Below are positions 9,557 through 56,096 of a DNA stretch of 56,346 nt, piece after piece. Below the pieces are notes generated by a model that was given only the letters and a program-made list of their open reading frames with translations, had not been told where the DNA came from and did not search any database. The DNA comes from an uncultured Pelagibacteraceae bacterium (GTDB taxonomy: Bacteria > Pseudomonadota > Alphaproteobacteria > Pelagibacterales > Pelagibacteraceae): contig CABXYF010000005.1 of NCBI GenBank assembly GCA_902516435.1, positions 1-56,346 on the forward strand, in the 5' to 3' direction. The translations under genes and the position numbers were made by a program. The first letter of the stretch is position 1, and each line of letters begins with the position of its first letter.

Positions 9557-9892
9557 TTAATTTAGCCGACCTAAATAGTTAACCATTATCACTCCAATAA
9601 TAATTAAGATGATCCCTACTATTCCATAAATATTAGGTACCTGATTAAATTTTAATACAGCAAAAAGCACAACACCGGTAACTGTTAAACCGCTATATGT
9701 TGCATAAGCAAAACCAACTGGCAGAGTATGCATAGCTTTAGCAATTGAGAACATTGTAATACACATAAACAAAATACATAAAATTGAAGGAGTTAGTTTA
9801 GTAAATCCCTCAGAAATTTTTGCTAAACTATTAGATGCAATTCCAAAAGAAATTCCAATAGCTAAAAATAAATACCCCAATAATGGTTTCAT
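9557..9892 (-). CDS. SMR-family membrane protein lacking the catalytic Glu (second of pair)
   Basis: 111 residues, four membrane helices, clearly small-multidrug-resistance family (AKISEGFTKLTPS after helix 1; GFAYATYSGL in helix 3; VNYLGRLN end). Aligned on K-x-SEGF, the position of EmrE Glu14 is residue 17, which here is Gly (SFGIASNSLAK). The position of EmrE Trp63 is Tyr (ATYSG). Both residues are needed for proton-coupled drug export in known SMRs, so this is unlikely to be a conventional exporter. It starts two bases after the stop of its paralogue, suggesting a heterodimer. Substrate unknown. Confidence 0.85.
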   Translation of the reverse strand: MKPLLGYLFLAIGISFGIASNSLAKISEGFTKLTPSILCILFMCITMFSIAKAMHTLPVGFAYATYSGLTVTGVVLFAVLKFNQVPNIYGIVGIILIIIGVIMVNYLGRLN

Positions 9893-9894
9893 GA

Positions 9895-10227
9895 TTATTG
9901 TTTTCCTAGTAAATTAACCAATAAAACACCTATAATTATAAAAGCCAAACCTATCATTGAATATAAATTCGGAACTTGATTATATTTGATGATTCCAACT
10001 ATAACGGTCGCAATAATTGTTAGTCCCGCAAATGAGGCATAGGTAATTCCCATAGGAATATTCTTCATCACTAATGAGAGAGCATACATACAAAGCACAA
10101 TTGTAATAGCTGTAATTATGCTAGGAACTAAAAGTGTAAATCCCTCAGCAGTTTTCGCGAAACTGTTTGAGGTGACTCCTAAAAAAACTGCAATTCCTAA
10201 AAATAAATAAGAAGTAGCAAGACTCAT
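9895..10227 (-). CDS. SMR-family membrane protein lacking the catalytic Glu (first of pair)
   Basis: 110 residues, four predicted membrane helices, same family and layout as the adjacent 9557-9892 product (FAKTAEGFTLLVPS; GITYASFAGL). The EmrE Glu14 position is again Gly (residue 17 in VFLGVTSNS) and the Trp63 position is Phe (ASFAG). The pair therefore shares the same double substitution. By contrast the single SMR at 53331-53663 keeps both Glu and Trp. It lies 40 bases downstream of the isomerase gene at the end of a long minus-strand series. Paired SMR genes usually make heterodimers; a transport role for a small metabolite is possible but not shown. Confidence 0.85.
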   Translation of the reverse strand: MSLATSYLFLGIAVFLGVTSNSFAKTAEGFTLLVPSIITAITIVLCMYALSLVMKNIPMGITYASFAGLTIIATVIVGIIKYNQVPNLYSMIGLAFIIIGVLLVNLLGKQ

Positions 10228-10267: not shown

Positions 10268-10858
10268 TTATTTAAGTGACCAACTAATAGCATCTTCCAT
10301 TCTATCATCACCCCAAAAGAGTTCATTTTTAACGATAAAAGATGGACTACCAAAAATTTTATTTGCTCGAGCTGAATTTGTATTTTCAATATATTTTTCT
10401 TTTATTATTGCCGAGTTTGCTTCAGAGATAATTTCATCTTTTTTTAAATTTAATTCTGTACAAACTTCAGAAATACTAGGTTCAATTGCAGGTTCTTTGC
10501 CCTCTTGAAACCATTTTTTATAAGTAAGAATAACAAATTTTTCTCCCCAACCTTTTTCAAATCCAAGAATTGCTATTTGATTAGCTAAATCAAACTCTGA
10601 TAATGGATAGGGGACTGGTGTTTTAGCAAAAAAACTATAACTTTCTGCTCTTCTTTCAATATCTCTCCACATGTAATTGACTTTATTAATTTTTTCTTTT
10701 GGAAATGGAATATTATTCATTTCCTTCATAATTGCTCTAACTGAAAATGGTTTCCAATTAAATTTTACTTGATGTTGTTTTTCAACATCAAGTATTCTTG
10801 TGACAGATAGATAGGTGTAAGTACTTCCTATCGAAAAATAAAAATCAATATTACTCAC
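10268..10858 (-). CDS. 2-hydroxychromene-2-carboxylate isomerase family (DsbA-fold, kappa-GST-like)
   Basis: 196 residues with a thioredoxin/DsbA-like fold. The N-terminus IDFYFSIGSTYTYLSVTRI has the family's active-site Ser where DsbA has CxxC. SPSFIVKNELFWGDDRMEDA near the C-terminus holds the conserved cis-Pro loop and the typical W-G-x-DR motif. Members isomerise aromatic-ring cleavage products with glutathione, or act as kappa-class GSTs. No aromatic degradation genes adjoin it; it follows the NTF2-like gene with no gap. The substrate here is unknown. Confidence 0.85.
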   Translation of the reverse strand: MSNIDFYFSIGSTYTYLSVTRILDVEKQHQVKFNWKPFSVRAIMKEMNNIPFPKEKINKVNYMWRDIERRAESYSFFAKTPVPYPLSEFDLANQIAILGFEKGWGEKFVILTYKKWFQEGKEPAIEPSISEVCTELNLKKDEIISEANSAIIKEKYIENTNSARANKIFGSPSFIVKNELFWGDDRMEDAISWSLK

Positions 10859-11179
10859 TTACTTTGGCATTGGTGTTGCACCAGTTTCTAGACTTGCTAT
10901 TTTTCCATCCTTATATTTATAAACTGCCATCACTGCTTCAACATTCCCATCATCAAATGTTACAAAAGCATGGTGAATACCTACTTCATCATTTTCATAA
11001 ACGATTCTCGTGTCTCTTTGGTTAATGTCACCGCTCATCGCCCATTTCATTACATCGGATTTACCTAATGTATTACCAGATTTATGCATGGTGAATTTAA
11101 AATCATCATGTAACAGTTCATTCATTGTAGCTTCATCTTTATTTTTTAATGCAGCTTCATATTTTTCTAATATCGACAT
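10859..11179 (-). CDS. SnoaL/NTF2-like small protein
   Basis: 106 residues from the ATG at 11179. This start is chosen over an upstream in-frame ATG at 11203 because AAGGAG stands five bases before it. The pattern ILEKYEAALKNKDEATMNELLHDDFKFTMHKSG, with later VMKWAMSGD and YKYKDGKIASLETG, is that of the NTF2-like/SnoaL cone fold, a common scaffold for small isomerases and cyclases or ligand-binding proteins. It belongs to the run of small minus-strand genes and has a distant fold-relative in the first gene of that run (14106-14489). No catalytic residues can be assigned. Confidence 0.75.
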   Translation of the reverse strand: MSILEKYEAALKNKDEATMNELLHDDFKFTMHKSGNTLGKSDVMKWAMSGDINQRDTRIVYENDEVGIHHAFVTFDDGNVEAVMAVYKYKDGKIASLETGATPMPK

Positions 11180-11189
11180 TTTTTCTCCT

Positions 11190-11477
11190 TTATATTCCTT
11201 CAATTATCATCCCATTAGAATCTGCGTTATCTAATCGAATGTTTTTTATTGGTTTGTATTCCTCAGAGTTATACCACTCCATGGCCTTATCATAAGAGGG
11301 AAATTTTATCACAACTGTTCTTGGATGTTGCCATGATCCCTCTACAATTACATTTTTACCACCTCTCACAAGATATTCTCCACCAAATCTTTCAGCAGTT
11401 GGCTTAACTTTTTCGACGTATTCTTTATAGTTTTCAGGATTATTTACATTGATGTTAAAGATTGCGTATCCTGGCAT
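11190..11477 (-). CDS. DUF1330 family protein
   Basis: 95 residues. GYAIFNINVNNPENYKEYVEKV, GGEYLVRGG, VIVEGSW and VVIKFPSYDKAMEWYNSEEYKPI are the DUF1330 signature, a dimeric alpha/beta-barrel (ferredoxin-like) fold. The start is two bases after the preceding stop, with no good ribosome-binding site, so coupling is likely. Biochemical function is unknown; the fold is shared with ABM monooxygenases and EthD-like proteins, several of which also occur in this gene run. Confidence 0.85.
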   Translation of the reverse strand: MPGYAIFNINVNNPENYKEYVEKVKPTAERFGGEYLVRGGKNVIVEGSWQHPRTVVIKFPSYDKAMEWYNSEEYKPIKNIRLDNADSNGMIIEGI

Positions 11478-11479
11478 AA

Positions 11480-11803
11480 TTATTCTGCAGGTTTAACAAC
11501 GCTTCCTGATGCTTCAGCAGCTTTTCTAAATGCTTTGTTATAATCTATAACTTCATGTATCATTAAATCATCCATCAAACCTGAATTTATAAATGCTACT
11601 TTCATTCCAACAACAGTTTCAGCATCTCCTTCAATACAGCAAATAACATCAAATCTACCACGGACCCACTCATAACTAATCATTTTACCACCAATTGCTT
11701 CAATAACTTTTTGTGTTGATGCAAATCTATCAGCCGAGGGATCTTTTTGCATTCTATGTAAAAGTTCTTTACTTACTTTTCCAATTACATAATATTTTGC
11801 CAT
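11480..11803 (-). CDS. GYD-domain protein
   Basis: 107-residue cytosolic protein. The core YEWVRGRFDVICCIEGDAETVVGMKVAF is the GYD domain (PF08734-type), another ferredoxin-like dimeric barrel. AAGGTGG lies upstream of the start, overlapping the end of the previous gene. It sits between a DUF1330 gene and another small barrel-like protein, with 1-2 base gaps on both sides. No active site can be named. Confidence 0.7.
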   Translation of the reverse strand: MAKYYVIGKVSKELLHRMQKDPSADRFASTQKVIEAIGGKMISYEWVRGRFDVICCIEGDAETVVGMKVAFINSGLMDDLMIHEVIDYNKAFRKAAEASGSVVKPAE

Positions 11804-11804
11804 A

Positions 11805-12095
11805 TTACATATCCACCTTTTTTAATTCCCAAGCAGTCATTTTATTTACACAATCATCATAAATCTCCTTACCAACTGGATGTGTACCAGAAACTAATTC
11901 TTTCATTTTTTCCTCATTATGAACAAACACTTTAAACATGACACCACTTTTATCAGGTTTTACTGCTCCAATAGTTTTTTCTGGATAAGCTGCTGATTTT
12001 CTTACACTCATTCCTTCATCTGATTGCATCCATCCCATAAATTTTTCTAATTTACCTTCTTTTAAGTCTGCGATTACTAACATTTCTTTTTCCAT
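11805..12095 (-). CDS. small uncharacterised protein, probable dimeric alpha/beta-barrel fold
   Basis: 96 residues, no signal peptide. I do not recognise a named family. The beta-alpha pattern (EMLVIADLKEGKLEKFMGWMQSD..., GVMFKVFVHNEEKMKELVSG) resembles ABM/DUF1330-type ferredoxin-like barrels. AAGGAG precedes the ATG at good spacing. The C-terminal ELKKVDM overlaps the ribosome-binding region of the next gene. Its place among structurally similar small proteins suggests a shared, unknown pathway. Confidence 0.65.
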   Translation of the reverse strand: MEKEMLVIADLKEGKLEKFMGWMQSDEGMSVRKSAAYPEKTIGAVKPDKSGVMFKVFVHNEEKMKELVSGTHPVGKEIYDDCVNKMTAWELKKVDM

Positions 12096-12151
12096 TTTTT
12101 CTCCTTTTTTAATTAATATATCCCTGATTTTATTAACTTGTCTATTTCTTT

Positions 12152-12550
12152 TTATTGAAGTGTACCCCGTAATTTTTCAATATCCTCTTCAGATCCAGGA
12201 ATAAGTTTGTAGATAAATGAGTTACACTCATCATTTCTTGCTGTATTAAAAGGTTGACCAATTAATTTATCTAATTCCTCAATAGTCCCTTTATTAATTT
12301 CGTCCTCTTTCACTTTTTCACTCAAAAGATAAGCTTTAACTATTTTAAATGAGGCCAAGGCGTATTCATTTTGGATAGCTTCAACTTCATTAGCAGGAAT
12401 AAAAGTTATTGCTGTATAGTGGCCCAAACATTTTATAGCCTCTTTTTTATCCTCATTTGTGATGTGTCCACCTGCAAAAGTAAGAGTTGGACTAACTAGT
12501 AATAAAATAGATATTACTAAATTTCTGGTGTTAATATAACGTTTGGACAA
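12152..12550 (-). CDS. secreted two-cysteine protein (paralogue B)
   Basis: 132 residues if read from the TTG at 12550, which overlaps the upstream gene by 20 bases; no ATG is available before the signal peptide, so the start is uncertain. A signal peptide is clear (hydrophobic SILLLVSP, then TFA before GGH). The mature ~105 residues hold two cysteines, in IKCLGHY and NDECNSF. They align with the neighbouring 12531-12905 product along the whole length, including a conserved Pro, an A..K..KAY helix and an IP(G)..EE..K...TL ending. Periplasmic, probably helical with one disulfide. Function unknown. Confidence 0.75.
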   Translation of the reverse strand: MSKRYINTRNLVISILLLVSPTLTFAGGHITNEDKKEAIKCLGHYTAITFIPANEVEAIQNEYALASFKIVKAYLLSEKVKEDEINKGTIEELDKLIGQPFNTARNDECNSFIYKLIPGSEEDIEKLRGTLQ

Positions 12551-12905
12551 CTTTTTTTACTCTTTCCTCTCCATCTGGGATAGTTGAATTAACGAAATTA
12601 TGACATGCTTCCGTTTTTTCTTTGTCGTATTTTGAACCATAATGTTTATCTACTGCTTTATTTACTCCTTCATCCCATTCACTCTCCGGAATACCAACTT
12701 CTAAAGCATAAGATTTAAGAACTTTTACTGTAGCCATAGACTTTTCCTTCATACTATATTCAAAAGTTTCTCCTGATGGCAAAAAGTAATTAGCCATATA
12801 TATACCACTACAATCCCAAGCTTTAGCCTTATTGTTGTCTGACATACCTGCGTATGCTGAGGTAGAAAGAAATAAAGCGCTTATTAATATAATTATTTTT
12901 TTCAT
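12531..12905 (-). CDS. secreted two-cysteine protein (paralogue A)
   Basis: 124 residues with a textbook signal peptide (MKKIIILISALFLSTSAYA, cleavage after AYA). The two cysteines of the mature part lie in WDCSGIY and EACHNF, at the same places as in the adjacent paralogue B, so the pair arose by duplication. AGGAGA precedes the ATG. Not recognised as a named family. The conserved Cys pair, acidic charge and small size suggest a stable periplasmic helical protein, perhaps ligand binding, but nothing in the sequence proves this. Confidence 0.8.
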   Translation of the reverse strand: MKKIIILISALFLSTSAYAGMSDNNKAKAWDCSGIYMANYFLPSGETFEYSMKEKSMATVKVLKSYALEVGIPESEWDEGVNKAVDKHYGSKYDKEKTEACHNFVNSTIPDGEERVKKVVQTLY

Positions 12906-12914
12906 ATTATTCTC

Positions 12915-13403
12915 CTATTTTTTTAATGTATAAGTTCCCCTGTAATAATTCGTTGCATGAATTCTACCTTCCTGAGCAGACTTAATTTGTGTGTAACCTG
13001 TAGTTCCACTGCATTCGATACCTTCATATCTACCTGTACCACTGATACATTTAAAAGTACCATCCATTGAGTAACCTAATTTTATTTCATAATAAATTAT
13101 TGCTGTATCACCATTTATAAACATTACTTTGCAGTGACCCATTTCAAAACCTTTACCTGGAATTGACCCTGCACCTATACAATAATGTGATGAATTATCA
13201 CCAAATGAAGTACCTTCGATTGCATTAAATCCACTTTGACCTTCGTATGTAAAAGTCATGACGTTTCCTTTTTCATCTACGATAGCTTTAGCATCGCCAA
13301 CAAAAAAACCAGCAAGACTAATTTTTCCACTATGACCATCTGCAAATGATACTGAAGACATTGACATTAATGTAAAAATTAATGCTAATATTATTTTTTT
13401 CAT
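12915..13403 (-). CDS. secreted beta-rich protein of unknown function
   Basis: 162 residues from the ATG at 13403, preferred over an in-frame GTG nine bases upstream because AAGGTG is correctly placed before it. Signal peptide MKKIILALIFTLMSMSSVSFA, then a glycine- and threonine-rich chain (GEKISL-like strands, YEGQSGFNAIEGTS, CISGTGRYEG) ending YYRGTYTLKK. This suggests a small periplasmic beta-barrel with up to four cysteines (YCIG, GHCKV, KCIS, ECSG). The strand pattern recalls lipocalin or allene-oxide-cyclase-like barrels, but I do not recognise the family. It is followed by the two-cysteine secreted pair. Confidence 0.75.
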   Translation of the reverse strand: MKKIILALIFTLMSMSSVSFADGHSGKISLAGFFVGDAKAIVDEKGNVMTFTYEGQSGFNAIEGTSFGDNSSHYCIGAGSIPGKGFEMGHCKVMFINGDTAIIYYEIKLGYSMDGTFKCISGTGRYEGIECSGTTGYTQIKSAQEGRIHATNYYRGTYTLKK

Positions 13404-13424
13404 TTTTATCACCTTTTTTTCTGT

Positions 13425-13694
13425 TTAATCTGAGCAAACGCTCATTACTGTTGTTTCTTGTTTATGTCCAGATTGTTCAATTATTTTAGCATTTTCAGGA
13501 CTCTGCATAAATTTCTGCATTGTATCTGCTGCAGGAGTTTCCATCACAAAATGTACCTTGTTAGGGTTTTCTACCTCATTCCCTAAATATATTGTTTTAA
13601 TGCCAGCTGCTTCTCTAGGCTCAGAATGCTCGTCAAACATTTTTTTCCAATGAGCCCAATCATTTACTTCAAAGCTCCCAACTATTTTTACCAT
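13425..13694 (-). CDS. small dimeric alpha/beta-barrel-like protein (DUF3764-like)
   Basis: 89 residues from the ATG at 13694, chosen because GGGGAGA lies just upstream; a longer frame reading back into the cupin gene is unlikely. IVGSFEVNDWAHWKKMFDEHSEPREAAGIKTIYLG and VHFVMETPAADTMQKFM show the repeated beta-alpha pattern of ABM-like proteins and resemble the DUF3764 group. Its start is one base past the cupin stop (TAAAATG arrangement), so it is surely translated with it. Function unknown. Confidence 0.7.
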   Translation of the reverse strand: MVKIVGSFEVNDWAHWKKMFDEHSEPREAAGIKTIYLGNEVENPNKVHFVMETPAADTMQKFMQSPENAKIIEQSGHKQETTVMSVCSD

Positions 13695-13695
13695 T

Positions 13696-14046
13696 TTATT
13701 CTCCCCATACCCCAGCAAACTCATATGCTTCAACAGGTTCACTACCAACTACCCAAGCATCATGCCCCGGTGTTACAGAGTAAGAGTCTCCTGCTTTATA
13801 TGTAACTTCTGTTCCATCATCGTGTTTTGCACAAACAGTACCTTTTGTGATGATGCCAATATGGTTAGCCTGACAACTATCAGTTCCAACATGAGGTTTG
13901 ACATCTGCAGACCATTTCCATCCTGGTTTTAAATGTAACCTTACTACTCTTTGACCGCCTACTTTAACTGCTTCAATTTTAGCATTATTAAATTTATCAA
14001 CTATTTCATCTGCTTCATCAAAAGATTTAACTTCAATACTACTCAT
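13696..14046 (-). CDS. cupin-domain protein
   Basis: 116-residue single-domain cupin. The first motif region VKPHVGTDSCQANHIGIITKGTV and the second GDSYSVTPGHDAWVVGSEPVEAYEF give a jelly-roll with candidate metal ligands His in KPHVG, His in ANHIG and His in PGHDA. AGGGGG before the ATG is strong. Cupins of this size act as isomerases, dioxygenases or sensors; no substrate can be deduced. It is the second gene of the small-protein run. Confidence 0.8.
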   Translation of the reverse strand: MSSIEVKSFDEADEIVDKFNNAKIEAVKVGGQRVVRLHLKPGWKWSADVKPHVGTDSCQANHIGIITKGTVCAKHDDGTEVTYKAGDSYSVTPGHDAWVVGSEPVEAYEFAGVWGE

Positions 14047-14105
14047 ATTAACCCCCTCTGTTAGTTAATAATTATTTAGTTTATCCAGAATTGACATATT
14101 GTTCC

Positions 14106-14489
14106 TTAATTTTTCATTGCATTGAACATGCTAAGGGTGTCATCAAATGTCATCATGGTTACAGTTTTTCCTTGATCATTCATTTCAAAATAATGTCCAA
14201 ACATAGTATCCATGTTATCAGCTTTGGCATGAACTCTTACAAAAATCTTATTTCCTTCACTGATCATATCCATAATTTTTAAATTAAAATTTGGCCATGT
14301 TCCTGGAATTTTAGACATTGTTGCTATCATAGCTTGTTTTCCTTTATGAACTCCTGATAAAGGATGAACACCTTCCTTACCTGGAAATGTCCAAACTATA
14401 TTGTCATCAATCATATCATTAAAAAATGTTTCCATATCTCCCGTGTTAAAAAGTTCATATGCTTTTTTCATTTGTTCTTTTATGTCCAT
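14106..14489 (-). CDS. SnoaL/NTF2-like protein, first gene of the small-protein run
   Basis: 127 residues. IKEQMKKAYELFNTGDMETFFNDMIDDNIVWTFPGKEGVHPLSGVHKGKQAMIATM is the typical ketosteroid-isomerase/SnoaL-like opening, with the family's W-x-FPG and H-x-G-K-x-A parts. VRVHAKADNMD forms the later strands. Consensus AGGAGG lies before the ATG. A sigma-70-like promoter (TTGACG-N17-CATAAC at 14548-14576) points to this gene. Probably binds a small hydrophobic molecule or is a small isomerase; the actual role is unknown. Confidence 0.8.
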   Translation of the reverse strand: MDIKEQMKKAYELFNTGDMETFFNDMIDDNIVWTFPGKEGVHPLSGVHKGKQAMIATMSKIPGTWPNFNLKIMDMISEGNKIFVRVHAKADNMDTMFGHYFEMNDQGKTVTMMTFDDTLSMFNAMKN

Positions 14490-52445: not shown

Positions 52446-53279
52446 TTATTGAGGATGGTCACCCTCAATTGCTATTCTGTCCATTATTCTTTCATAGCCT
52501 AATCCTCTACCAGGAAAAAAATCAGCTATAGCATAATGAATAACACTTCTATTATCCCAAATTGCAACAGCATTTTCTGTCCAACTAAATCTACAACTTA
52601 GATCTAGTCTCGCTTGATGCTCAAAGATATTTTTTAATATTTCATTACTTTCATCTTTATCTAATCCAACAATTTGCTTTGTATATGTCCAATTAACATA
52701 TAAAATTTTTTTACCTGTTTCAGGGTGAGTTCTTACTATTGGATGTTCATTGGAGTACGACTCATAATTTCGATCTTTATTTCCTTCCATATATTTATAA
52801 TCATCAATAAAAAATTCAGCACCAAGTGAGCTATGGATTGCTTTCTTATTTATTATCTTTTTTTGAATATTAGGATCTAGTGTTTCCCAGGCTAGTTCCA
52901 TGTTAGAAAAACAAGTATCACCACCTACTGGAGGAATCTTTATTGATTTTAATATTACTGCCTTTGTAGGTTTAGAATTATAGCTTACATCGCTATGCCA
53001 ATTTTCACCCCATTGATTTTTTTCTTCTTTACCTTTTATAATTCTTACAATTTCAGGGTAGTCTTTTAATCCCTTTACATAAGCATGAGTTTCTAATGGG
53101 CCAAATTTTTCTGCAAGAGCTATCTGTTGATCATTTGTTATAGGTTGATCTCTAAAAAAAATTACCTTATGTTCAAGTAGTAAATCATTTATCTTCTTAA
53201 AATTTTGATCCGAAACATCCGTTAAATCAACTCCTTTGATTTCTGCACCTAATGCACCAGATAATAATTTAATGTCCAT
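52446..53279 (-). CDS. TauD/TfdA-family Fe(II)/2-oxoglutarate dioxygenase
   Basis: 277 residues, normal TauD length. H95-x-D97 in WHSDVSY and H248 in VIHYAIADF bind iron; R264 in YERIM binds 2-oxoglutarate. VDLTDVSDQNFKKINDLLLEHKVIFFRDQPIT and FGPLETHAY are typical N-terminal elements. Known relatives release sulfite from taurine or cleave aryloxyalkanoates. A TauD role would duplicate the Tpa route at 27 kb, so another substrate is quite possible. It is upstream of the GMC oxidoreductase by 44 bases. Confidence 0.87.
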   Translation of the reverse strand: MDIKLLSGALGAEIKGVDLTDVSDQNFKKINDLLLEHKVIFFRDQPITNDQQIALAEKFGPLETHAYVKGLKDYPEIVRIIKGKEEKNQWGENWHSDVSYNSKPTKAVILKSIKIPPVGGDTCFSNMELAWETLDPNIQKKIINKKAIHSSLGAEFFIDDYKYMEGNKDRNYESYSNEHPIVRTHPETGKKILYVNWTYTKQIVGLDKDESNEILKNIFEHQARLDLSCRFSWTENAVAIWDNRSVIHYAIADFFPGRGLGYERIMDRIAIEGDHPQ

Positions 53280-53330
53280 TTAAAATAATTTATCTCTAGA
53301 ATTATTATTTGTCAAAATGTATAAAAGGTT

Positions 53331-53663
53331 ATGACTTTGACTCAAGCTTATATGTTGTTAGTAATTGCAATTGCTGGAGAAATAATTTCTACAGGCACCT
53401 TAAAAGCAACAGAGGGCTTCACGAAATGGATACCTTCTTTAATTTGTATTTTAGCCATAACCATTTGCATGTACACGATGTCTCATGTAATGAAAATTTT
53501 ACCTTTAGGCATAACTTATGCTACATGGTCAGGAGTCGGTATTATTGCCTTATCATTAATAGGGTTTTTTAAATATAAACAAATTCCAAATTTTGCAACG
53601 ACAATAGGTTTAATTTTAATAATTGTTGGTGTAGTAATAGTTAATACTATGAATGATACTTAA
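53331..53663 (+). CDS. SMR-family efflux protein with intact catalytic residues
   Basis: 110 residues, four membrane helices. It keeps the essential membrane glutamate (E17 in IAIAGEIISTGTLK, equivalent to EmrE Glu14) and the helix-3 tryptophan in TYATWSGVGI, so it can be a proton-coupled exporter of small cations or guanidinium-type compounds as a homodimer. It provides the in-window reference for the two SMR genes near 10 kb that lack both. The end is four bases from the convergent thioesterase stop. Confidence 0.9.
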   Translation: MTLTQAYMLLVIAIAGEIISTGTLKATEGFTKWIPSLICILAITICMYTMSHVMKILPLGITYATWSGVGIIALSLIGFFKYKQIPNFATTIGLILIIVGVVIVNTMNDT

Positions 53664-53667
53664 AAAT

Positions 53668-54138
53668 CTATTTTTTAAGTTTTGAAGAAAACTTCAAATT
53701 ATCTGATTTGAAATTATTATTATTTTTTAAAATATAGTCTTTCATTAAATCTACTTTTTCATTTTCAAATTCAACAACTTTTCTTTCACCTAAGTCAACA
53801 TACAAAGATAATGCTTCTAGTGTAGCAGCTAAATATTTTTTTTCGGAGTGAATCATTTCTAATTTATATTGAATTCTTTTTTTATCATGATCGCAATACA
53901 TAAGATTAATATCTACCTCATCATTTTCTTTAACTTCTTGATCATAAGTAACATGTGACTCCACAACCATAGTACTCCTTTTTGTGGTCTTGGCCGAATG
54001 TTCACCCATATTAAAATTAGTTAATAGAACTTCAGATCCAAATTGATCAAATATAAGTACATAAAATGCTACGTTCATGTGTCCATTATAATCGGTCCAA
54101 TCTTTAATAATTTTTTTCTTTGTTAGGAAAATACTCAT
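53668..54138 (-). CDS. hot-dog thioesterase, betainyl-CoA thioesterase-like
   Basis: 156 residues, 4HBT hot-dog fold. IKDWTDYNGHMNVAFYVLIFDQFGSEVL contains the D-x-N-GHMN active-site motif, and ESHVTYDQEVKENDEVDINLMYCDHDKKRIQY is typical of the thioesterases linked to carnitine breakdown, which hydrolyse betainyl-CoA to betaine. The BKACE-type enzyme encoded at 54901 would supply such a CoA ester. It starts just one base after the class II aldolase stop. A different short acyl-CoA is the alternative. Confidence 0.8.
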   Translation of the reverse strand: MSIFLTKKKIIKDWTDYNGHMNVAFYVLIFDQFGSEVLLTNFNMGEHSAKTTKRSTMVVESHVTYDQEVKENDEVDINLMYCDHDKKRIQYKLEMIHSEKKYLAATLEALSLYVDLGERKVVEFENEKVDLMKDYILKNNNNFKSDNLKFSSKLKK

Positions 54139-54139
54139 A

Positions 54140-54871
54140 TTAATCTTTATAATCAGGCTCTTGCTTATCTAAAATTAATCTAATTTGTGATAAAAATTGT
54201 TTTGCTGTATCAACAGGATAATTAGCAGCCTCCTCTGAAGTTTTTTCAGCAATCTCGTGACTTACTATGTTTAAATCTTTATTTGTTGATAGAGCTGTAA
54301 TGTAGGTTTCGGCAGCTTTTTCAAAATAATATAATGAATTAAACCCTTCGGCAATCGTTTCTCCAGTTATTAAAATACCATGATTTGCTAAAATCATGTG
54401 TTGTTTATTTCCTAAGGCATTCGCCATTTTGATTGACTCATCTTTAAATCCTAGGCCCCCATAGTCATTATAGATAGCGATTTTGTTATAAAAAATCATT
54501 GTATTTTGATCTATCGGTTTTAAGGTTGGGTCTTTTAGCGTTGACAGTGCAGTTGCATATTTAGAATGAACATGAAAAATACATTTTGCATGCGGAGCTT
54601 TTTCATGAATTGTTCCATGTATATTTAGTGCTGTAGAGTCAACTAATTCAGGTTTATTTTTCAACTCATCAATATTTTTTTTTGTTATTAATATTAAATC
54701 ACTTGCTTTTATTTGACTGAAATGAATACCTGCTTTATTTACATAAAAATCTTCAGATCCAGGAACGCAGGCACTAAAGTGGTTTGCAACTGCTTCATGC
54801 ATGTTTAGTCTTGCGGCCCATCTAAATGTTGCAGCTAAATCCTTTTGTAATTCTGTTATTTCCATTTTCAC
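54140..54871 (-). CDS. class II aldolase/adducin family protein
   Basis: 243 residues. The zinc ligands are seen in FHVHSKYATAL and LANHGILITG, with NHFSACVPG and HGTIHEKAPHAKCIF being family features. Members are fuculose-phosphate-type aldolases, decarboxylases or dehydratase-like enzymes. It lies between a thioesterase gene (one base apart, same strand) and a divergent BKACE gene, so it may be part of the same degradation route, though no aldol step is required in known carnitine cleavage. Substrate unknown. Confidence 0.83.
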   Translation of the reverse strand: MKMEITELQKDLAATFRWAARLNMHEAVANHFSACVPGSEDFYVNKAGIHFSQIKASDLILITKKNIDELKNKPELVDSTALNIHGTIHEKAPHAKCIFHVHSKYATALSTLKDPTLKPIDQNTMIFYNKIAIYNDYGGLGFKDESIKMANALGNKQHMILANHGILITGETIAEGFNSLYYFEKAAETYITALSTNKDLNIVSHEIAEKTSEEAANYPVDTAKQFLSQIRLILDKQEPDYKD

Positions 54872-54900
54872 TTTTTTAAACTATAAGTTAAATATAAATT

Positions 54901-55788
54901 ATGGACAATAAGGTTTTTATATCTTGTGCAGTAACTGGATCTGGCGATACAGCTAGTAAACATCCAGATTTGCCAAAAACTCCAGAACAAATTGCTAATG
55001 CTTCTATTGAAGCTGCTAAAGCAGGTGCTGCAATTGCTCATATTCATGTCAGAGAGGAAGATGGAACTCCTAGCAGAAGATTAGAATTGTATAAAGAAGT
55101 TGTTGATAGAATTAGGTCTAGCGGTACTGATGTAATTTTGAATTTAACTACTGGTATGGGTGGTGATTTAGATATTGGTCAAGGTAAAAATCCTTTAGAT
55201 TTTGGTCCCATGACTGATATGGCAAATGTTATGGAAAGAATTGCAAATGCTGAACAATTTTTACCTGAAATATGTACCTTAGATGCAGGAACTTTAAATT
55301 TTGGAGACAGTTCAGTGATTACAGTTAACACTCCTAATGATTTAAGAAAAGCGGCAAAAAAATTAAAAGAAATAAATGTTAAGCCAGAAATTGAAGCTTT
55401 CGATTTAGGTAATATGTGGTTTGGAGCACAACTTTATAAAGAAGGTTTGTTAAGTGACCCTCCAATGTTTCAAATGTGTTTAGGAATTCCTTGGGGAGCA
55501 CCGGCAACTACACTGGCAATGCAAGCAATGAAAGATATTATGCCAAAAGAGGGTGTTTGGTCTGGTTTTGCAATTTCAAAAAATGAAATGCCTTTTGTTG
55601 CCCAAACAATTTTAATGGGAGGAAATCCAAGGGTAGGACTTGAAGATAATTTGTATTTATCAAAAGGGAAATTAGCAACAAACGCTCAACTTGTCGAAAA
55701 AGCAATAAGAATTGCAGACGAGATTGGTTTTTCAACCATGACACCAGCTGAAACAAGAGAAAAATTAAAATTAATTAAACATAATTAA
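54901..55788 (+). CDS. beta-keto acid cleavage enzyme (BKACE, DUF849)
   Basis: 295 residues, zinc TIM barrel. FISCAVTGSGDTASKHPDLPKTPEQIANASIEAAKAGAAIAHIHVREEDG carries the zinc HxH and the family opening; LDAGTLNFG and MGGNPRVGLEDNLYLSKGKLA are further signatures. The reaction is beta-keto acid + acetyl-CoA to acetoacetate + a new acyl-CoA. In the dehydrocarnitine subgroup the product is betainyl-CoA, matching the thioesterase nearby. Carnitine dehydrogenase is not in the window. The stop overlaps the next start (TAATG). Confidence 0.88.
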   Translation: MDNKVFISCAVTGSGDTASKHPDLPKTPEQIANASIEAAKAGAAIAHIHVREEDGTPSRRLELYKEVVDRIRSSGTDVILNLTTGMGGDLDIGQGKNPLDFGPMTDMANVMERIANAEQFLPEICTLDAGTLNFGDSSVITVNTPNDLRKAAKKLKEINVKPEIEAFDLGNMWFGAQLYKEGLLSDPPMFQMCLGIPWGAPATTLAMQAMKDIMPKEGVWSGFAISKNEMPFVAQTILMGGNPRVGLEDNLYLSKGKLATNAQLVEKAIRIADEIGFSTMTPAETREKLKLIKHN

Positions 55789-56096
55789 TGTCAAAAGTAA
55801 CTGTCCTCGCAAGTTTTTATCCTAAAGAGGATAAATATAATCAGGTTAAAGAAATTTTACTATCAATGACTAACCCAACTAGATTAGAAGAAGGTAATGA
55901 GGTTTATAATTTTTATGAGGAAAAAAATCCTGAAGATACAATTAATTCTTTTCATCTTTTTGAAATATATAAAGATACTAAAGCATTAGACTTTCATAGA
56001 AATACAGCTCATTATAAAAACTATCGATCTGAAATCATTAATTTATTAAATAGACCCATAGAGGTAAAAGTTCTTAGTTCAGTTGATACTAAATAA
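55788..56096 (+). CDS. ABM-domain (antibiotic biosynthesis monooxygenase-like) protein
   Basis: 102 residues. VTVLASFYPKEDKYNQVKEILLSMTNPTRLEEGNEVYNFYEEKNPEDTINSFHLFEIYKDTKALDFHRNTAHYKNY is the ABM pattern with the conserved E-x-x-NP and W/F-x-L-x-E strands, a dimeric ferredoxin-like barrel. Its start shares one base with the BKACE stop, implying joint expression; such proteins may be cofactor-free oxygenases or simple ligand handlers. No active residue can be identified. Confidence 0.8.
   Translation: MSKVTVLASFYPKEDKYNQVKEILLSMTNPTRLEEGNEVYNFYEEKNPEDTINSFHLFEIYKDTKALDFHRNTAHYKNYRSEIINLLNRPIEVKVLSSVDTK

Follow-up and report, generated by a model that had tools for sequence, protein, structure and literature searches.

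The membrane glutamate of the SMR family (Glu14 in EmrE) is regarded as the engine of these small transporters, and a tryptophan (Trp63 in EmrE) has been reported to pack against aromatic substrates. The genes described here come from SAR11, the most abundant bacteria of the ocean, whose streamlined genomes keep few transporters. In EmrE, Thr18 is part of the pocket wall, a single turn away from Glu14, and forms a bond with Tyr40 (PMC9000954). Lipid SMRs often carry Asn at the Glu site itself, and it has been suggested, though not established, that those without the Glu are not proton coupled and work by facilitated diffusion (PMC9574504). In the Bacillus pair YvaE/YvaD, YvaD lacks E14 and is poorly conserved, while its partner YvaE is well conserved (PMC2716321). 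At the level of titles and abstracts, no description of a Glu-less SMR from SAR11 was found in the literature searched.

Here we describe two adjacent SMR genes, A and B, whose products share with Qac proteins (EmrE, QacC/G/H/J) their length, four helices, fold, Tyr60, Lys22 and loop motif (EmrE numbering), A being about 32% identical to EmrE. In contrast to Qac proteins, they lack the central Glu, Trp63 and an intact GxG, and have Asn in place of Thr18 and Met or Ile in place of Tyr40. Escherichia coli ArnE and ArnF likewise have no central Glu (Ser/Ala at position 14 in the MAFFT alignment), an amide at 18 (Gln) and no Trp63, and they keep Tyr60, but they are only 21 and 14% identical to A, and no glycolipid modification operon is present here; the A-based profile did not detect them, and they were aligned separately at low identity. 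Whereas lipid SMRs often have their Asn at the Glu site, that of A and B stands four residues after it. YvaD resembles A and B as a paired SMR paralogue devoid of E14; unlike in YvaE/YvaD, however, both A and B lack the Glu and both are strictly conserved. MdtI/MdtJ and EbrA/EbrB are also adjacent paralogues, and MdtI has Asn at 18 as well, but MdtI/MdtJ keep the Glu; compared with such paired SMRs, A and B show no opposite charge bias and are often found singly in genomes. We thus deal with a large SMR clade in which the fold and strong selection have been retained and the Glu has been lost, and the automatic label "multidrug efflux SMR transporter" is probably wrong for its genes.

A and B have the SMR fold and lack the membrane glutamate

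The window, i.e. the whole stretch of 56,346 nucleotides that was analysed, belongs to a 79% complete genome assembly of 1.01 Mb, in which three SMR genes were found, namely A, B and C (Table 1). B is located upstream of A, and only two bases separate them.

Table 1. Positions of the SMR genes and of the genes next to A and B
Feature	Coordinates	Strand	Description
A	9557..9892	-	Glu-less SMR, A-type, 111 aa; Gly17, Asn21, Tyr63, Tyr66, Thr70
B	9895..10227	-	Glu-less SMR, B-type, 110 aa; Gly17, Asn21, Tyr63, Phe66, Thr70
DSBA-fold protein	10268..10858	-	PF01323; HCCA-isomerase/GST-kappa-like by eye; directly upstream of B, conserved cluster
DUF4440/SnoaL-like protein	10859..11203	-	next gene upstream in the conserved cluster
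Small same-strand genes	11190..14489	-	GYD/DUF1330/DUF3764-type, cupin, SnoaL-like; upstream run
C	53331..53663	+	Glu- and Trp-bearing SMR, C-type; sister of the Glu-less clade

Both proteins are true members of the SMR fold. In profile searches they matched PF00893 with 63.4 (A) and 60.4 bits (B), at a curated Pfam cut-off of 23.7, and their best NCBIfam models were those of Qac proteins, while the ArnF model barely matched A (E 0.007). The model of B (pLDDT 86.4, built on a deeper alignment than that of A) is predicted to be a four-helix SMR protein: in structure comparison with VIA-align it reached Z 16.6 with Gdx-Clo and 14.8 with EmrE, and non-SMR matches were lower (SLC35B1, Z 10.5; ABC exporters, at most 8.6). 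The model of A was weak (pLDDT 60.6, from a 16-row alignment), and its Foldseek matches to EmrE and Gdx had E above 0.01.

The preliminary description had placed Gly at the Glu14 site of both proteins and Tyr or Phe at that of Trp63, with Glu and Trp retained in C. These assignments stand. HMMER aligned A 7-109 with EmrE 4-106 and B 6-109 with EmrE 3-106 without a gap, at an offset of 3, which puts Gly17 at the Glu14 site of A and B, and Tyr66 (A) or Phe66 (B) at the Trp63 site; C has Glu17 and Trp66 in the same register. MAFFT and the B model, in which residues 4-110 fall on EmrE 1-107, gave this register too, so that the alignment was indeed sound, and misalignment as the cause of the missing Glu is excluded. 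Three further sites are changed: EmrE Thr18 corresponds to Asn21, one helical turn from residue 17, EmrE Tyr40 to Met43 in A and Ile43 in B, and EmrE Gly67 to Thr70 in both.

No acidic residue replaces the glutamate in relatives of A and B

SMR open frames were gathered from 253 loci records, and the 373 frames gave 274 distinct aligned rows, 227 of which were Glu-less (118 A-type and 109 B-type). Every one of these 227 had both Gly17 and Asn21, just as all 47 Glu-bearing rows had Glu17, Trp66 and Gly70. The central membrane Glu of the proton-coupled Qac and Gdx proteins was therefore missing, with Gly in its place, not only from A and B but from the entire set, and the binding-site Trp was missing as well, residue 66 being Tyr in 118 rows and Phe in 109. 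The GxG fulcrum in TM3 was broken in all 227, its second Gly having become Thr, Cys, Ala or Val. Other positions hardly varied: the Tyr switch (EmrE Tyr60, here Tyr63) was present in 226 of the 227 and replaced by Phe in one, and Asn21, Tyr63 and Lys25 were invariant or nearly so.

Two observations that would speak against the loss had been named beforehand, namely an acidic residue displaced within helix 1 and Glu in close orthologues. No displaced acid was present in the 227 Glu-less relatives aligned, and none of the rows read was a close orthologue with Glu. With approximate helix ranges, TM1-TM3 contained no Asp or Glu in any A-type (0/118) or B-type (0/109) row, and a displaced acid taking over the role of Glu14 was rejected on this ground. 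The sole acid within the approximate membrane ranges was Asp87, at the edge of loop 3 and TM4, in 24 B rows; 31 of the 227 rows (26 of the 118 A-type, 5 of the 109 B-type) were acid-free throughout.

As a separate observation on Glu-type proteins, Pro replaces EmrE Lys22 in 19 of the 38 other Glu-type rows (L004, L008, L015 and similar SAR11 SMRs).

The Glu-less proteins form one clade under strong selection

A tree was built from 89 of the 274 distinct rows, thinned by identity and gaps. All Glu-less proteins (54 rows) fell into one clade with support of 100/98, the Glu-bearing C-type being its sister (joint group 99/96), and removal of the six trait columns together with three long E. coli rows left the clade at 98/88 and the joint group at 100/98. 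Gly at the Glu14 site is thus the mark of a clade, which is what the preliminary description had proposed to look for. It needs to be mentioned that the alignment is short (104-110 columns), and the inner forks are uncertain for that reason. Since the sister is Glu-bearing, loss of the Glu is the cheaper direction of change. C-type rows have Ile or Leu at the EmrE Tyr40 site and mostly Ser at that of EmrE Gly17; they are intact at Glu14, Thr18, Trp63 and Gly67, and the exchanges at these four sites are therefore placed on the branch leading to all Glu-less proteins. The proteins of another alphaproteobacterial family, f32, carry Tyr66 and group with the B side (96/78), so the split between A and B probably came after the loss of the Glu.

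Median dN/dS (Nei-Gojobori) was 0.063 for A (91 pairs), 0.051 for B (64) and 0.109 for C (7), each pair being the window gene and a relative at dS below 1.5, so that the pairs all share the window gene and are non-independent. GGA, GGT, GGC and GGG all serve as Gly17 codons in A-type and B-type genes alike, and both AAT and AAC are used for Asn21. The low ratios and the four Gly codons point to selection rather than decay, and pseudogenes were ruled out on these grounds. The idea that A and B are relics drifting after the loss of their catalytic residue, as YvaD, which lost E14 and is under very little selection according to PMC2716321, is for the same reasons, and given the invariance of Gly17 and Asn21 in 227 rows, extremely improbable.

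Glu-less SMR genes are widespread in SAR11

The 80 relatives of A listed, out of at least 560, came from Pelagibacteraceae, Pelagibacter and Pelagibacterales, and two from uncultured Alphaproteobacteria. At the order level, 221 of 297 genomes matched the alignment at E ≤1e-3; judged by score among the matches listed, about 200 of the 221 scored like Glu-less (or C-type) proteins, and the others had Glu-type scores only. At the class level, 18 of 385 genomes matched at 1e-20. Three of these were Pelagibacter; of the remaining matches, 14 keep Glu and Trp, and one (G658, a member of f32) is Glu-less. At the phylum level (28 of 398 genomes at 1e-22), Glu and Trp were present in all 19 matches checked of the 27 besides the window's genome. 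Relatives of G658 extended the Glu-less set to additional f32 genomes and to two genomes of f142; for those in f142, and for two B-type cases in f32, transfer or binning error is possible. On sequence grounds, then, the Glu-less clade is present in most SAR11 genomes and in one other alphaproteobacterial family with small genomes, f32.

A mobile or phage origin of A and B was considered and rejected: the single viral contig with a relative (L153) bears the Glu, and phage and plasmid matches were below 60% identity, those listed being named qac, abeS or ebr, or unnamed. In one f32 genome, a frame with Glu-type scores is broken by a single TAA (G718:C39:26908-27234).

A and B are found singly as well as together

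The preliminary description treated the two proteins as a heterodimer, and a tandem of SMR genes would normally suggest one. An obligate heterodimer does not agree with what we found. We compared 22 genomes with A or B and a completeness of at least 90% (a partly hand-picked, non-random set from which G080, with a Glu-type SMR only, was excluded). Of these, nine have both genes, ten have A only and three have B only, so that 13 of the 22 have a single type. The mean Arg/Lys bias, with approximate loops, was +1.0 for A (n=118) and +0.4 for B (n=109), i.e. close to zero and not opposite, unlike in known SMR pairs, for which PMC9574504 gives about +4/-4. Together with the single-type genomes, these biases suggest that A and B can probably each act as a dual-topology homodimer; an AB heterodimer is possible where both genes are present. 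In 13 of the 22 genomes a Glu-type SMR accompanies A or B. None was found in the other nine, including G190 (one contig, 100% complete) and G069 (99%), and a Glu-type partner is therefore not needed.

A conserved gene cluster and a linked DUF2798 protein

The run of small same-strand genes upstream of the DUF4440/SnoaL-like gene (Table 1) probably shares a transcription unit. Across loci distinct in their SMR content, the arrangement SnoaL-like, DSBA-fold, B, DUF2798, A was seen most often (35 loci), followed by a lone A (27 loci) and by the order of the window, which has no DUF2798 gene (21 loci). No particular substrate follows from the enzymes of this cluster, and no glycolipid biosynthesis gene was found in it.

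DUF2798 (PF11391) is a small membrane protein. It gave 24 matches in 23 of 61 whole genomes, a count independent of the SMR-based choice of loci that ignores kinship, and all 24 lie less than 5 kb from a Glu-less SMR gene, 14 of them within 150 bp. In Pelagibacter it is often located between B and A (e.g. L098:5550-5780). On the other hand, 38 of the 61 genomes lack it, it is missing from the assembled genome of the window, and its family consensus (70 sequences) holds no strongly conserved acidic residue. It is possible that DUF2798 is an accessory subunit of Glu-less SMRs.

No Rfam match was found between 8000 and 16000, and a promoter scan gave 14 promoter-like sites, which were set aside because shuffled sequences gave more (mean 32.7). 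At 10766-10794, in the first part of the DSBA-fold gene, there is a 12-bp stem with a 5-base loop.

Uncoupled transport as a plausible explanation

Compared with EmrE, the pocket of A and B would have lost its negative charge and its Trp, and gained two amides per dimer. With Met or Ile in place of Tyr40, Asn21 has no partner like that of Thr18. With no membrane carboxylate in either protein, proton antiport based on a carboxylate is not expected, in agreement with the preliminary description, which offered a facilitator, a channel or another coupling residue instead. A facilitator is what we, too, would prefer, whereas another coupling residue could not be an acidic one, TM1-TM3 being free of acids in 227 of 227 rows. 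A channel, or a role with lipids, is possible as well. To the explanation that A and B are uncoupled dual-topology facilitators or flippases with an amide-lined pocket and a non-cationic substrate, transport itself being presumed, we give about an even chance.

In this scenario, the Glu-less clade would have a single origin in streamlined marine Alphaproteobacteria, where a Qac-like protein that still bore the Glu underwent correlated replacements in pocket and hinge (Glu14 to Gly, Thr18 to Asn, Trp63 to Tyr/Phe, Gly67 to Thr/Cys/Ala/Val), and the clade would then have split into the paralogues A and B. Each protein may insert in both orientations and form antiparallel dimers (A2, B2, possibly AB) that would rock like EmrE, although rocking may be altered because the second fulcrum Gly is gone. 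The pocket would be uncharged, with the Asn21 amides of both subunits, the Tyr63 switch and Tyr/Phe66 along its walls. Its substrate might be a metabolite that is neutral, zwitterionic or has an anionic head, and would pass down its gradient with no coupling to protons, most likely outward or between leaflets, in the service of the enzymes of the same cluster. Substrate and direction are a guess on our part, and the tandem arrangement of A and B counts against this explanation.

It might be argued that A and B are still coupled, either through a site other than an acid (Tyr63, the backbone, or a sodium ion at the Asn21 amides) or through a partner such as DUF2798. The near invariance of Asn21, Tyr63 and Lys25 and the tight linkage of DUF2798 would fit this idea; however, the membrane has no titratable acid, and the partner is too often missing and itself poor in conserved acids, and we consider such coupling unlikely. 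That A and B flip lipids in the manner of ArnE/ArnF is distinctly doubtful: the small residue at 14, the amide at 18, the missing Trp63 and the conserved Tyr60 are shared, but A and B belong by sequence to the Qac branch, as sister to C, and match Qac models far better than that of ArnF, and the analogy is further weakened since the cluster holds no glycolipid gene. Somewhat less probable again is that they are non-transporting, regulatory subunits that damp Glu-bearing SMRs, or membrane scaffolds for DUF2798. A dimer of the EmrE type does tolerate one mutant subunit (there is a WT/E14Q structure entry), and Glu-type SMRs do co-occur with A or B, yet none was found in nine of the near-complete genomes, and a scaffold would not need the conserved, pocket-facing Tyr63 and Asn21.

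Neighbouring genes as leads on the substrates

In f32, an M24 gene similar to DddP is located immediately upstream of the SMR gene, on the same strand, in 17 of 17 genomes with an f32-type SMR (e.g. L167:186-1824), and 14 further f32 genomes have the enzyme without such an SMR. The best solved relatives of this enzyme are 4rzy/4rzz/4s00/4s01 and 4b28, which we take to be DMSP lyases. It scored 369 bits with the NCBIfam DddP model, below the equivalog cut-off of 600 bits, and by sequence it is to be called DddP-like only. Another DddP-like gene is found in the genome of the window, at a different place (contig C7). We regard the f32 neighbour as a lead on the SMR substrate and not as evidence for it, and the linkage may reflect a single ancestral arrangement. 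One may speculate that the Glu-less proteins are a fifth functional kind of SMR, i.e. facilitators without coupling whose two-amide pocket would accept zwitterionic or anionic metabolites of marine organosulfur or organic-osmolyte chemistry (DMSP or acrylate, for example), in which A2, B2 and AB would differ in selectivity and DUF2798 would be accessory; taken as a whole, this proposal is rather unlikely.

C is a natural control for A and B, and as this Glu-bearing sister is present in the same genome, the function of an SMR without the proton site becomes directly testable. The neighbours of C (52446-56093) are genes for a TauD-family dioxygenase, a thioesterase-like protein, a class II aldolase, BKACE and ABM proteins. 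By the kinds of genes, this set resembles the glycine-betaine/carnitine island of Arctic SAR11, for which PMC12421898 names BBOX, ACOT, class II aldolase, BKACE and an SMR. The likeness suggests, by analogy, that C may handle quaternary amines, in line with its residues.

In L167, one of the f32 loci, the SMR frame has no ATG, GTG or TTG start and probably begins at a CTG right after the stop of the enzyme gene; in L202 the probable start is GTG.
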